A stretch of 64,000 nucleotides of DNA from contig NZ_CP132343.1 in assembly GCF_040529065.1 (NCBI RefSeq), positions 1,116,001 to 1,180,000 on the forward strand. Direction: 5' to 3'. The number at the start of each line of letters is the position of its first letter. Position 1 is the first letter of the stretch. The notes under the pieces were generated by a model, which saw only the letters and a list, made by a program, of their open reading frames with translations, did not search any database and was not told where the DNA came from. Of this stretch, positions 10,552 through 53,624 are shown piece by piece. The position numbers and the translations under genes were made by a program. Source of the DNA: Xanthomonas sacchari. GTDB taxonomy: Bacteria; Pseudomonadota; Gammaproteobacteria; Xanthomonadales; Xanthomonadaceae.

Positions 10552-10714
10552 GGGAGTGGGGAATCGGGAATGGGGAATGGCTAGAGCGGCTTGGCTGGGG
10601 CGGCTTCTTTCCGCTTAGGCCAAACGAAAAAACCGCGCGATCGCGCGGTTCTTCGTGGACTCAAGGCGCCAGGGGCCAGCTTTTACGATCCCCCATTTCC
10701 GATTCCCCACTCCC
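10552..10714. repeat. paired heptad-arm element A
   Basis: The left arm, 10552-10579, is four tandem heptads GGGAGTG, GGGAATC, GGGAATG, GGGAATG. The right arm, 10687-10714, is the inverted equivalent (GATCCCC, CATTTCC, GATTCCC, CACTCCC), 107 bp away. Even the odd GGGAGTG unit is mirrored at the far end (CACTCCC). The loop holds the terminator of the upstream minus-strand kinase. The element lies between that kinase and the activator gene. Confidence 0.85.
10625..10650 (-). terminator. rho-independent terminator of the PfkB kinase gene
   Basis: A perfect 20-bp palindrome AACCGCGCGATCGCGCGGTT (10631-10650) is followed on the minus strand by a run of T (AAAAAA on the plus strand at 10627-10632). 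It lies 69 bp downstream of the kinase stop, inside the loop of heptad element A. Confidence 0.85.
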
Positions 10715-10718
10715 AGCC

Positions 10719-11651
10719 TTACAACGCATAGCCGAACTGCTGCTTGAACTGGTCGTTGAATTCGTCGAAGTCGAAGCGCTGGTTCTGGGTGCCTGGGTGC
10801 TCGACCTTCAGGGCGCCCATCAGGTTGCCCATGCGGCCGATGGTCAGCCAGTCGCAGCCGCGCTGGATGCCGAAGATCAGGCCGGCGCGGAAGGCGTCGC
10901 CGCAGCCGGTGGGGTCGACCACGCGGCGCTCGTGCGCCGGCGGGATGTCGTAGGTCTTCTCGGGGGTGTGCACCAGCGCGCCCTTCGGGCCCTGGGTGGT
11001 GATGTAGGCCTGCACGCGCGAGACGATGTCCTTCTCGTCCCAGCCGGTGCGCTCCTGCAGCAGGTTGGACTCGTAGTCGTTGACCACCACGTAGTCGGCC
11101 TGCTCGATGAACTGGCGCAGTTCGGGGCCGTTGAACAGCGGCATGGCCTGGCCGGGGTCGAAGATGAACGGCACGCCGCCGGCGCTGAACTCCTCGGCGT
11201 TCTGGATCATGCCCTCGCGCCCGTCCGGGCCGACCAGGCCCAGGGTCACGCCCGGCACGTCCTTCACGTGGTTCTCGTAGCTGCGCATCATCGCCCCGGG
11301 GTGGAAGGCGGTGATCTGGTTGTTGTCGTGGTCGGTGGTGATGAACGCCTGCGGGGTGAACAGCTCCTCGATCACCTTGACCCGCGACAGGTCGATGCCC
11401 AGCGCCTGGAAATGCTCGCGATATGGGCCGAAGTCCTGGCCCACGGTGCCCATCGGGATCGGGTGGCCGCCCAGCAGGTGCAGGTTGTAGGCGATGTTGC
11501 CGGCGCAGCCGCCGAACTCGCGGCGCATCCGCGGCACCAGGAACGACACGTTCAGGATATGCACCTTGTCCGGCAGGATGTGGTTCTTGAACTGGTCCGG
11601 GAACACCATGATGGTGTCGTAAGCGAGAGAACCACAGATCAGTGCAGACAT
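10719..11651 (-). CDS. PfkB-family carbohydrate/adenosine kinase
   Basis: 310 residues. It is a ribokinase-fold kinase with the N-terminal substrate motif GGCAGNIAYNL and the C-terminal signature DPTGCGDAFRAG, whose last Asp is the catalytic base next to the anion hole. Length and the NIAYNLxxLG motif resemble bacterial adenosine kinase-like nucleoside/sugar kinases; the exact substrate cannot be read. The start at 11651 (MSALICGSLAYD) places the first beta strand at the terminus; an upstream in-frame Met would add 11 residues. It is transcribed away from mreB, with its own terminator. Confidence 0.85.
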   Translation of the reverse strand: MSALICGSLAYDTIMVFPDQFKNHILPDKVHILNVSFLVPRMRREFGGCAGNIAYNLHLLGGHPIPMGTVGQDFGPYREHFQALGIDLSRVKVIEELFTPQAFITTDHDNNQITAFHPGAMMRSYENHVKDVPGVTLGLVGPDGREGMIQNAEEFSAGGVPFIFDPGQAMPLFNGPELRQFIEQADYVVVNDYESNLLQERTGWDEKDIVSRVQAYITTQGPKGALVHTPEKTYDIPPAHERRVVDPTGCGDAFRAGLIFGIQRGCDWLTIGRMGNLMGALKVEHPGTQNQRFDFDEFNDQFKQQFGYAL

Positions 11652-11811
11652 CGGGCAGGCCTTGGCGGAGGAATGAGCCCGCATTCAGGCGGGCGAGGGG
11701 CGGGGTCGCCGCGGCGCAAAGGGTAACGGCTGCGGCCCGGCAGGGCCAGAACCACGATCCATCGCGGTCCCGCCGATACCACGCAACGCGTGGTTTTAGC
11801 GAGAATTTTCC

Positions 11812-11840
11812 TTGCCCGCACCCAGGCGGATTGCTAGGCT
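11812..11840 (+). promoter_or_regulatory. candidate sigma-70 promoter of mreB
   Basis: TTGCCC (11812-11817), a 17-bp spacer and TAGGCT (11835-11840) lie about 70 bp upstream of mreB, in the 260-bp gap between the divergent kinase and mreB. The -10 box is weak. Confidence 0.4.
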
Positions 11841-11911
11841 AGCGGACTTCGTTTTCTGCCCATTTTTTCGCCATTCTGGCGACGGCGCGCGCCCCAGGAC
11901 CCAATCCCCCG

Positions 11912-52039: not shown

Positions 52040-52045
52040 AGCCTT

Positions 52046-52885
52046 TCACTGCTGCGCCGACTGGTCTTCCGGGTCGCGGCGGGCGGGGGAGCGGCGGGGA
52101 GGCAGGGGCGGCAGGGCGTCGCGGGCTTCGGTGTCGTGGCCGGCGGCCAGGGCCGGTTCCCAGGGGAAGCGCGGCAGGGTGCGCACGGCGTTCTCCAGCT
52201 TGCGCGACCAGGTGTCGTGGATCTCGGCGTACAGCGGGGTGTCGGCTTCCAGGCGCATGCGCTCGGTCACGCGCAGGTCGTTGCGGCGGATCAGCGCCAG
52301 GTCGATCGGCATGCCCACCGACAGGTTGGAGCGGATGGTCGAGTCCAGCGACACCAGGGCGGTGCGCGCGGCATCTTCCAGTTGCATCTCCGAACGGATG
52401 ATGCGGTCCAGGATCGGCTTGCCGTACTTGGATTCGCCGATCTGCAGGTACGGGGTTTCCGGCGAGGTGGCGATGGCGTTGCCGAGCGGATAGATCATGT
52501 ACAGCCCGGGCCGTTCGCCGGCGATCTGCCCGCCCAGGATCAGCGTCGACTGCACGTTGACGCCGCTGTGCTGGGATTGCTCGGAGAGCTTGATCTGGCT
52601 GGAGGCCAGCACCTCGCCGACGTACTCGGCCACCTCGAACAGGTGGCGGAAGCTGCGCAGGCTGCGCGGCGCCTCGGGATCCTCGGCGTCGCGCTGCAGG
52701 CGTGAAATGGTCAGCTGGGTGGTCGCCAGGTTGCCGGCTGACATCAGTGCGAACACCGCCTGGCCCGGGTACTCGAACACGTGCAGCTTGCGGTGCACGC
52801 GGACGTCGTCCAGCGAGGCGTTGGTGCGGGTGTCAGCGGCGAAGACCAGGCCTTCGTCCACTTCGATGCCGACGCAATATGTCAT
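52046..52885 (-). CDS. proteasome-homologue peptidase Anbu
   Basis: 279 residues. It begins MTYCVGIEVDEGLVFAADTRTNASLDDVRVHRKL, the start of Anbu (ancestral beta-subunit) Ntn hydrolases, where Thr2 becomes the nucleophile after Met removal. It continues with GNLATTQLTIS, STLILGGQI and SVGMPIDLALIRRNDLR, typical of the family. The last ~40 residues are a Pro/Arg-rich tail. Anbu forms open spiral rings; its substrate is unknown. It is usually found beside transglutaminase-like, alpha-E and ATP-grasp genes, none of which is adjacent here. Confidence 0.9.
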   Translation of the reverse strand: MTYCVGIEVDEGLVFAADTRTNASLDDVRVHRKLHVFEYPGQAVFALMSAGNLATTQLTISRLQRDAEDPEAPRSLRSFRHLFEVAEYVGEVLASSQIKLSEQSQHSGVNVQSTLILGGQIAGERPGLYMIYPLGNAIATSPETPYLQIGESKYGKPILDRIIRSEMQLEDAARTALVSLDSTIRSNLSVGMPIDLALIRRNDLRVTERMRLEADTPLYAEIHDTWSRKLENAVRTLPRFPWEPALAAGHDTEARDALPPLPPRRSPARRDPEDQSAQQ

Positions 52886-52980
52886 GGCGATGCCGAAACC
52901 GGGTGCATCTGGATTCTATGCGGGCTGGCGCGGGCTGGCTAGCCGTTGACGCTCGGCGCCGCGGCATGCGCGAATAGTGC

Positions 52981-53469
52981 ATGACCACCGTGCTTCTGAG
53001 CCTGGGCAGCAATCTGCGCCCGCATCACCACCTGGCCGCGGCGATCGCGGCGCTGCGCCGGCAGTTCGGCGCGATCGCGGTGTCGCCGACCTATCGCACC
53101 GCGGCGGTCGGCTTCGACGGGCCGGCGTTCCTGAACAACGCGGTGGCGCTGCAGACCGACTGGGAGCTGGCGCCGCTGGACGACTTGCTGCATGCGCTGG
53201 AGGACGCGCATGGCCGCGACCGCAGCGGCCCGCGCTTCAGCGACCGTACCCTGGACATCGACGTGGTGTTCTACGGCGACCGCATCGTCGAAGGCCCCGG
53301 CCACCTGCGCATCCCGCGGCCCGAGCTGCGCCACGCCTTCGTGCTCAAGCCGCTGGCCGACATCGCTGCCGATTTCGTCGATCCGGTCAGCGGCCAAACC
53401 CTGGGCGCGCTATGGCAGGCGCATGCGGAGCATGGCAAGGCGTTCGAGGTGGTCGAGTTGGATGAGTAG
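52981..53469 (+). CDS. folK: 2-amino-4-hydroxy-6-hydroxymethyldihydropteridine pyrophosphokinase
   Basis: 162 residues. HPPK signatures LLSLGSNLRPHHHLAAAIAAL, YRTAAVGFDGPAFLNNAVAL, RTLDIDVVFYGD and IPRPELRHAFVLKPLADI. It pyrophosphorylates the pterin in folate synthesis. The convergent neighbour is a pteridine reductase, a functional match. The start is 95 bp from the divergent Anbu gene. Confidence 0.94.
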   Translation: MTTVLLSLGSNLRPHHHLAAAIAALRRQFGAIAVSPTYRTAAVGFDGPAFLNNAVALQTDWELAPLDDLLHALEDAHGRDRSGPRFSDRTLDIDVVFYGDRIVEGPGHLRIPRPELRHAFVLKPLADIAADFVDPVSGQTLGALWQAHAEHGKAFEVVELDE

Positions 53470-53471
53470 CC

Positions 53472-53624
53472 GGGATTGGGGATTCGGGATTCGCTGTGAA
53501 GCAGGGATTCGGGATGTAGGGATTCGGGATTCGCCAGTGCGGTAAGCGCAACGACGTTCAAGCGGGCGCGCTCAGGTCGCGTCAACCCGCTTTTGCGAAT
53601 CCCCAATCCCGAATCCCGAATCCC
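53472..53624. repeat. paired heptad-arm element F (GGGATTS subtype)
   Basis: The left arm (53472-53492) has GGGATTG, GGGATTC, GGGATTC, then further copies at 53504, 53519 and 53526 (GGGATTC). The right arm (53597-53624) is GAATCCC, CAATCCC, GAATCCC, GAATCCC. It has the shortest loop (64 bp) and an expanded left arm. It lies between the convergent folK and pteridine reductase genes. Confidence 0.85.

Follow-up and report, generated by a model that had tools for sequence, protein, structure and literature searches.

The window analysed here, a 64,000-nucleotide stretch of the Xanthomonas sacchari genome (NZ_CP132343.1, positions 1,116,001 to 1,180,000, within a single 4.96-Mb contig), contains six elements (A to F), each consisting of two convergent arms of tandem 7-bp units (heptads) on either side of a loop. 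The units read GGGAATS or GGGATTS (S, C or G), defining the AAT and ATT subtypes, respectively. Comparison with related genomes showed that the sites are fixed, that arms and loop are replaced as a unit, that loops can be inverted, and that the two arms of an element match in subtype without matching as base-pairing partners. The reading that we tentatively prefer, with somewhat less than even confidence, is that the elements are cassettes that occupy fixed intergenic sites and undergo exchange or inversion through arm-bounded recombination. The heptad family itself is known; the subtype match without pairing, the replacement as units, and the inversion of loops are new as far as our literature searches reached.

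Fixed sites with changing content

Counterparts of the window were taken from ten other Xanthomonas genomes, giving a set of 11 with the window genome. Sixty-three of the 66 arms or elements (at least three units) in these regions map to the same six sites, the other three being unmapped arms of G153 that were taken as tandem copies at site E, and no seventh site was found in the 11 regions. At five of the six sites the content varies by species, usually in arms and loop jointly. Site B carries AAT arms and a homologous loop in 10 of the 11 genomes, and by eye its counterpart holds a paired element even in Pseudoxanthomonas (AAT in locus L059 and ATT in L065). Several unrelated alleles were found among the relatives at each of sites C, D, E, and F. 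The subtype at site C, for example, is AAT in G000, G160, G159, and G157, ATT in G136, G158, G165, G153, and G167, and ACC in G156, and the E loop of the window was recovered in only one of the shorter loci from 19 genomes, four of which fall short of the site. At site A, the loop is retained although the arm subtype varies (AAT in G000, ATT or mixed in others). Among the 11 genomes, no empty site with the same spacer was found; site A is armless in G160, G158, and G159, with a different spacer in all three.

Ordinary intergenic DNA is more stable. As controls, 15 arm-free spacers of 70–350 bp were taken from the same region on the basis of a rough gene call, and these are homologous in 74 of 75 cells against five near relatives and in 61 of 75 cells against five farther ones, compared with 17 of 30 cells in either group for the six loops, some of which are homologous only through a repetitive extragenic palindrome (REP) pair (D) or the heptads (F). 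The contrast between spacers and loops in the near relatives gives a Fisher P of 1e-7, the cells not being independent of one another. Because the arm-free spacers stay homologous, the excess replacement is tied to the elements. The first-pass annotation of this stretch had proposed that the arms might be copied together as a mobile unit; arms and loop do mostly change jointly, but no new sites appeared, and the tested loops are bound to their sites save for one pair of neighbours.

Several signs of recombination were found at these sites. Compared with its orientation in G156 and the window, loop F is inverted in both G136 and G158; G156 and G136 also differ in the orientation of a second loop, whose outer parts match in reverse only. 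The alleles of site D conflict with the species tree: that of G136 groups with the allele of G160, whereas that of its sister species G156 groups with those of G000 and G158. When inspected by eye, site C of G166 reads as a mosaic, in which an ACC unit with its own leader copy is followed by the right arm of the ATT allele, and ACT arms enclose ACC arms at the same site in G164 and G168. In G153, site E is triplicated in tandem.

Replacement between sister species

G136 and G156 share 98.5% identity over 14 kb of coding sequence. Of 37 entries in G156, 5 were unmapped and 5 were merged with a neighbour <600 bp away; the resulting 27 distinct sites map to G136 over 470 kb. A loop was regarded as replaced when it gave no blastn match at an E-value of 1e-3 with the heptads masked; for single arms a short stretch was compared, and three sites have arms of opposite orientation. 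Detectable loop homology is lacking at 14 sites and present at 13, two of which are inverted. The 13 full pairs of G156 provide a firmer count, in which 7 are replaced in G136 (one of the 6 kept pairs rests on 15 bp). The subtype also differs at 12 of the 14 replaced sites according to the table of arms, one of them (332462) having been read from the sequence by eye. All three ACC/ACT arms or elements of G156 in the 470 kb are located where G136 has ATT or AAT arms, suggesting that a new subtype takes over existing sites.

At 100–700 bp, flank identity is 97.4% for the replaced sites (27 flanks) and 97.3% for the kept ones (26 flanks), with a baseline of 96.5% obtained from 95 of 120 random 600-bp windows. 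The sister sequences show identity up to near the gene edge and then change completely. In the first of two clades compared, flank identity between different alleles rises from 0.834 (nearest 50 bp) to 0.941 (following 50 bp) and is then 0.964, 0.967, and 0.954, and the matching bins for the same allele give 0.928, 0.955, 0.970, 0.973, and 0.967. The corresponding series in the second clade are 0.781, 0.833, 0.919, 0.960, and 0.945 for different alleles and 0.835, 0.850, 0.930, 0.948, and 0.950 for the same allele. The steep drop in identity near the arms and the complete change at the gene edge suggest that replacement is mainly bounded by arms or gene edges. Import of large tracts from distant species was considered and rejected because flank identity is near-equal beyond the first 50 bp and is not lowered at replaced sites between the sisters; short exchanges among close relatives are possible.

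Six paired sites in the window

The six sites, each with two convergent arms, were all present where the first-pass annotation had placed them, and they are far beyond chance. The 20-mer GGGAWTSGGGAWTSGGGAWT, a three-unit pattern, has 24 matches in the window with up to two mismatches and none in 100 shuffles. With up to one mismatch, it has 340 forward and 386 reverse matches in the whole genome and none when the pattern is read backwards. The features of the sites are given below in window coordinates.

10552..10579, forward strand: left arm of site A, GGGAGTG GGGAATC GGGAATG GGGAATG
10580..10686, no strand: loop of site A, containing the terminator-like AAAAAACCGCGCGATCGCGCGGTT; homologous loop in relatives with ATT or mixed arms
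10687..10714, reverse strand: right arm of site A, degenerate AAT type, GGGAGTG GGGAATC GGAAATG GGGGATC
12969..12996, forward strand: left arm of site B, AAT type, 5′ of mreC
13090..13117, reverse strand: right arm of site B, AAT type
13958..13985, forward strand: left arm of site C, AAT type, within the 3′ end of mreC (Pfam MreC)
13986..14178, no strand: loop of site C, coding within the C-terminal tail of MreC; relatives have ATT, ACT, or ACC arms around loops of unrelated sequence
14179..14206, reverse strand: right arm of site C, AAT type with one ATT unit
25348..25375, forward strand: left arm of site D, ATT type; site flanked by convergent D-Ala-D-Ala carboxypeptidase and LpxR-like genes
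25412..25473, no strand: REP pair in loop D, GTAGGAGCGGCTTCAGCCGCGAC and its inverse
25496..25523, reverse strand: right arm of site D, ATT type
51779..51806, forward strand: left arm of site E, AAT type; site flanked by convergent response-regulator/histidine-kinase and proteasome-subunit-like genes
51807..52011, no strand: loop of site E, 205 bp, present in 1 of 10 other regions (G160)
52012..52039, reverse strand: right arm of site E, AAT type with one ATT unit
53472..53492, forward strand: left arm of site F, three ATT units; site flanked by convergent HPPK and SDR genes
53519..53532, forward strand: inner two-unit ATT block in loop F
53597..53624, reverse strand: right arm of site F, ATT type; loop in opposite orientation in G136 and G158 compared with the window and G156

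Open reading frames and Pfam matches agree with the earlier count of three sites between convergent genes (D, E, and F), and the open reading frame before site B was taken by eye to be mreB. Translation of element C (13958–14235 of the window) showed that arms and loop encode the low-complexity C-terminal tail of MreC; the tail thus differs among species according to the cassette, and a swap at this site alters the coded protein. Among the matches listed, the best named one for MreC is that of Xanthomonas sp. NCPPB 1128 (95%). Rfam gave no match in the window at gathering scores.

Several details of the first-pass annotation required adjustment. The arms have four units in general, but the left arm of F consists of three adjacent units and the separate two-unit block at 53519–53532. 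The distances between arms, described as 64–205 bp, are 107, 93, 193, 120, 205, and 104 bp for A to F, respectively, and the value of 64 is obtained only from the inner block of F. The statement that the two subtypes are never mixed within an element holds for the majority unit in six of six, but single deviating units were found in the right arms of C and E (one ATT unit each) and in the left arms of D (one AGT unit) and E (one GGGATGG unit). The mirroring of GGGAGTG by CACTCCC in A is genuine; by hand count, same-place coincidences of AGT units number four over the 53 pairs of the larger sample introduced below, where about two are expected. The loops, described as unrelated to each other, are mostly so, except that 9 of the 53 loops of that sample, including that of D, share a palindromic stretch of ~65 bp, which is the REP pair in the case of D.

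Arm structure and location

A sample of 864 kb was scanned for arms, consisting of the window and 40 stretches of 20 kb from the same genome. About half of the first 20 stretches were sited at known heptad matches, and the second 20 were placed at round positions with matches ignored (hit-blind stretches). In total, 141 arms were identified, compared with 4 in the reversed sequence. They form 53 convergent pairs within 400 bp and no divergent pairs, with 3 same-orientation neighbours and 35 unpaired arms; arms are therefore mostly paired (106 of 141, and 26 of 36 in the hit-blind stretches), as the first-pass annotation supposed. If the 13 pairs in the 400 kb of hit-blind stretches are typical, ~160 pairs would be present genome-wide.

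Exactly four units are present in 111 of the 141 arms, and the consensus extends over ~45 bp, RGCC-(GGGAWTG GGGAWTC)x2-GCAAMAGCG. Although the arm finder gave equal weight to bases 1 to 4 of the unit, base 1 is G in 444 of 444 units and base 4 is A in 442, compared with G in 418 at base 2; base 6 is T in 431. The near-constant A at base 4 points to recognition of the sequence rather than of G-runs alone. Base 7 is mostly C or G, ordered G-C-G-C across the four units. On the inner side, most arms are flanked by a GCAAMAGC-like sequence; GTAGGAGC was found in 2 of the 111 four-unit arms, and the heptad arms are non-palindromic.

Arms are strongly associated with the ends of genes, 68% of the 141 being located within 50 bp after the stop of a long open reading frame (12% for random positions) and 77 starting within 10 bp after a stop codon (1.8% for random positions). 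An arm lies within 15 bp after a stop in 45 of the 53 pairs, and at both ends in 15. Start codons are weakly enriched (11 of 106 arms versus 39 of 530 random positions).

Some arms in other genomes depart from this plan. In L110 (positions 1565–1823; genome G060), an arm of ~37 heptads lies beside an ordinary four-unit partner. The spacer 5′ of mreC in L053 (Stenotrophomonas daejeonensis) carries, by eye, GGGAACG-like units on both sides, a further matched subtype. Locus L061, titled Bacillus subtilis SK7B5, has an mreC 70% identical to that of the window and falls among Stenotrophomonas-like loci, and the assembly is probably contaminated or mislabelled.

Subtype match and base pairing

By majority unit, the 53 pairs comprise 28 ATT/ATT, 23 AAT/AAT, and 2 mixed pairs. 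The subtype thus matches in 51 of 53 against an expectation of 0.50 from the margins (hypergeometric P ~5e-13), in agreement with the earlier claim that arms are paired compatibly above random. In the 11-genome set, 40 of 43 pairs match, ACC and ACT included; the orthologous pairs in this set are related by descent and hence not independent.

The match does not extend to S (base 7). Agreement between partners at this base is not above shuffling in the 864 kb (87 of 204 versus 0.438) or when restricted to C/G cells (81 of 162 versus 0.517), shifts from -3 to +3 and reversed order were not significantly better than shuffled, and the 11-genome set gave 82 of 160 versus 0.476 when shuffled (P = 0.14), some of its elements, such as F of G136, being in full agreement. 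Within a subtype, partner agreement at W (base 5) is weak (0.837 versus 0.812, P = 0.055). The arms therefore share a subtype, not a register of complementary changes. If the match arose mainly from arm-to-arm gene conversion or from template switching in a quasi-palindrome, S should have been copied along with the rest; both were rejected as its main cause on this basis.

The subtypes are unevenly distributed among genomes. The survey of exact pairs covered 151 genomes of the order, a subset of a larger group, with patterns that detect only gaps of 15–75 bp and with overlapping matches counted. Heptad pairs were found in eight genera. AAT pairs were found in 8 genomes, ATT pairs in 7, and mixed pairs in 4, and four genomes showed one subtype only (AAT/ATT matches: G032, 0/38; G105, 0/10; G060, 9/0; and G012, 5/0). 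Matches to GGGACY, counted with overlaps, are absent from G000, G136, and G157 and number 87 in G156 (the sister of G136), 353 in G154, 635 in G164, 463 in G166, and 307 in G168, with 2 to 121 in the other 12 genomes.

Origin of the loops

Each of three loops was looked for in 20 genomes and occurred at its own site only, save for the ACT loop of G164, which is also present at a neighbouring site ~1.6 kb off (in the G164 and G168 searches for one loop, 40 of 64 and 40 of 45 candidates were scored, respectively). When twelve loops of the window genome were joined into a single query and run against three whole genomes, the 40 of 174 candidates scored in G000 were either the loops themselves or matches to the heptad block at the start of loop F. 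Of the 27 G156/G136 loops compared with 2.39 Mb, four had matches at clearly other sites and were read as carriers of REP pairs (one unchecked), and a loop of G136 has its counterpart, probably at the same site, in an AAT element of the window genome (L077). The E loop was not found in plasmids or phages, and the site-C loop of G156 was not found in plasmids, the only collection searched for it.

The REP pair at 25412–25473 lies within loop D, and a similar loop in G158 lacks it, which indicates a datable insertion of a REP pair into a heptad element. Two ACC/ACT elements of G156 (136229–136331 and 137761 onward) are 1.5 kb apart and have loops ~70% alike by eye; the E and F loops of G164 are likewise alike, and neighbours may copy from each other.

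Arms were sought around candidate mobilizing genes. None of 30 Y1-transposase loci has a heptad arm within ~1.5 kb on each side, other transposase families not having been searched. These loci derive from matches in 17 of 20 searched genomes, 14 of the 30 coming from genomes with heptad pairs; in G012 and G105, heptad pairs are present and no Y1 match was found. Transposition by a REP-associated tyrosine transposase (RAYT), hinted at by the inner GTAGGAGC of a few arms, was rejected as the driver on these grounds. We also rejected a longer autonomous element, whose arms would enclose an enzyme gene, since the sole widely spaced convergent unpaired neighbours in the sample are 606 bp (L099) and 2568 bp (L088, of unlike subtypes) apart. 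Between the ATT arms 606 bp apart, L099 (8369–9016) contains about four tandem copies of a ~150-bp repeat (CCCTTCTCCCCTCGGGAGAAGG...).

Explanations for the paired elements

If cassettes are exchanged or inverted by arm-bounded recombination, as we tentatively propose, recombination would start and end at arms or gene edges, and would either replace the resident allele by one from a different strain or from a neighbouring element, or flip the loop. The four-heptad blocks may offer short stretches of homology many times over, and exchange may be provoked where their G-runs stall replication or transcription. The two arms would then match because they arrive as one unit from a single-subtype lineage, not through any need to pair. 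From these sequence comparisons we infer the actor, the source of the loops, and any role of G-quadruplexes.

Several observations weigh against this interpretation. Allelic import from another species should carry flank differences, but identity falls strongly only within the first 50 bp; beyond 100 bp, pairs with different alleles are ~0.6 to 1.3 points lower in one clade, and between the sisters the flanks of replaced sites are no less alike than those of kept ones. At site A and at a single arm of G156 (355316), the subtype differs while the adjoining loop sequence is kept. The latter arm, compared with G136, is ATT-like versus AAT-like at base 5, with base 7 and the inner sequence kept, i.e. 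an arm-only switch. Such subtype changes beside kept loops indicate that arms can also be rewritten alone. Regular mutual conversion of arms should make S agree, and it does not. No donor for the new loops was found in the searches made, and no recombination enzyme was identified. A bolder version of arm-bounded recombination, in which a hundred or more fixed docking sites are served by subtype-specific machinery that swaps whole cassettes in lineage-specific dialect waves (AAT, ATT, ACT, and ACC) and leaves the adjoining genes untouched, seems rather unlikely to us.

One alternative is a selected RNA or DNA hairpin, with compensation of mutations in the paired arms; a selected hairpin was one of two readings offered by the first-pass annotation. 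In all six elements, the predicted folds do join the arms into long stems, and the start of 77 of 141 arms within 10 bp after a stop codon would suit such a structure, but RNA duplex energy is best with the own partner in only two of six window elements (B and D), which equals chance within a subtype, and 35 of 141 arms are unpaired. S is as necessary for pairing as the other bases yet shows no partner covariation at any shift, so the compensatory co-variation claimed for the arms is not supported. A hairpin is possible, selection for it is not visible, and we consider this explanation very improbable. The same low standing applies to simple repeats made by slippage, kept for G-quadruplex formation and paired by chance placement. 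Quadruplex formation in vitro and the preference for four units reported in PMC4692102, together with long arrays such as that of ~37 units in L110, are consistent with it, but it is hard to reconcile with the conserved outer and inner flanks of the arms, the position-specific G-C-G-C order at base 7, the convergent orientation of all close opposite-orientation pairs, the subtype match, and the replacement of loops.

Transposition deserves more weight, though we also judge it unlikely. In this case, a two-armed non-autonomous element resembling a miniature inverted-repeat transposable element (MITE) or a REPIN would be mobilized in trans by a subtype-specific enzyme and insert preferentially into older elements, which would then be lost. 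The fixed arm consensus resembles terminal inverted repeats, subtypes rise in single lineages (GGGACY, 0 in G136, 87 in G156, and 635 in G164), nested arms occur at site C, and the three ACC/ACT arms or elements of G156 occupy sites of other subtypes in G136. However, the tested loops are not common to distant sites, no new site was found in the 11 regions, no clean empty site or target duplication was seen, and, among Y1 transposases, the one family searched, none of the 30 loci is armed and two genomes with heptad pairs gave no match. A DNA-recognition signal bound by a protein and existing in dialects, e.g. for DNA uptake, appears less probable still; preferential import of DNA carrying the current dialect would spread that dialect and displace older alleles at the same sites. 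Bases 1 and 4 are more constant than base 2, which would not be expected from the need for quadruplexes alone, exact pairs are of a single dialect in G032, G105, G060, and G012, and sites remain fixed while alleles change. Strict convergent pairing is nevertheless left unexplained, and we know of no DNA uptake specificity in Xanthomonas, which we count against this explanation.

With these results, a heptad family known since 2015 without a function becomes a recombination problem, and a testable one. Its paired form is not a covarying hairpin, its subtypes behave as dialects that can expand in a single member of a sister-species pair, and the loop differs between the sisters at about half of the sites compared. 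Heptad loci, including some used for strain typing, may thus be replaced outright, beyond slippage; according to search listings, some strain-typing papers carry the heptad in a repeat list or primer.

Comparison with known systems

MITEs are short and non-coding, have terminal inverted arms, and fall into subfamilies, features that are common to the heptad pairs. Unlike for MITEs, no shared interior was found in the heptad pairs, no new sites appeared in the compared regions, and no target duplication was seen. The DNA uptake sequences of Neisseria and Haemophilus also exist in dialects and, in some genera, occur as inverted pairs after stop codons. The heptad arms are much longer and tandem, and any link to uptake would be by analogy.

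REPINs and REP sequences with RAYTs, as described in PMC3116915 and PMC2817692, resemble the heptad pairs in having two inverted arms and a spacer, an extragenic location, many copies, and lineage-specific types. Heptad arms differ in being non-palindromic, in lacking a constant GTAG head (GTAG or GTGG was tested for), and in the absence of arms at all 30 Y1 loci. The tested heptad loops have not spread as copies, unlike REPINs, and true REP pairs are separate entities that reside inside some loops.

The closest relatives are the GGGNATC repeats of Xanthomonas and Nostoc (Rehm et al. 2015, PMC4692102), the sole family-level treatment in our search listings, in which no earlier account of subtype match or turnover was found. 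In that paper, GGGAATC-type heptad repeats number 186 and 183 in two Xanthomonas genomes, and close convergent repeat pairs are given as 70 cases in Xcc and 75 in Xac. GGGNATC heptads are described there as preferring four units and as forming quadruplexes in vitro, including GGGAATC and GGGATTG oligonucleotides, and their function is left open. The heptads, the four units, the convergent pairs, the intergenic location, the proximity to stops or starts, and a gene context common to related species are all alike, and the identity of heptads and convergent pairs with those of that paper means that the finding of six sites rediscovers a known family. A tandem GGGANTN array of at least 14 bp with GGGAATC at least once is present at A, B, C, and E; the arms of D and F lack GGGAATC and are members in the wider sense only. 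The words 'compensat', 'covar', and 'GGGATTC' do not occur in the accessible text, which likewise does not deal with subtype matching, the lack of partner covariation, ACT/ACC subtypes, replacement of arm-loop-arm units, or loop inversion. The two accounts also differ in emphasis, insofar as the paper describes a neighbourhood that is more stable when judged by gene order, whereas the content of the elements studied here is less stable than ordinary spacers.

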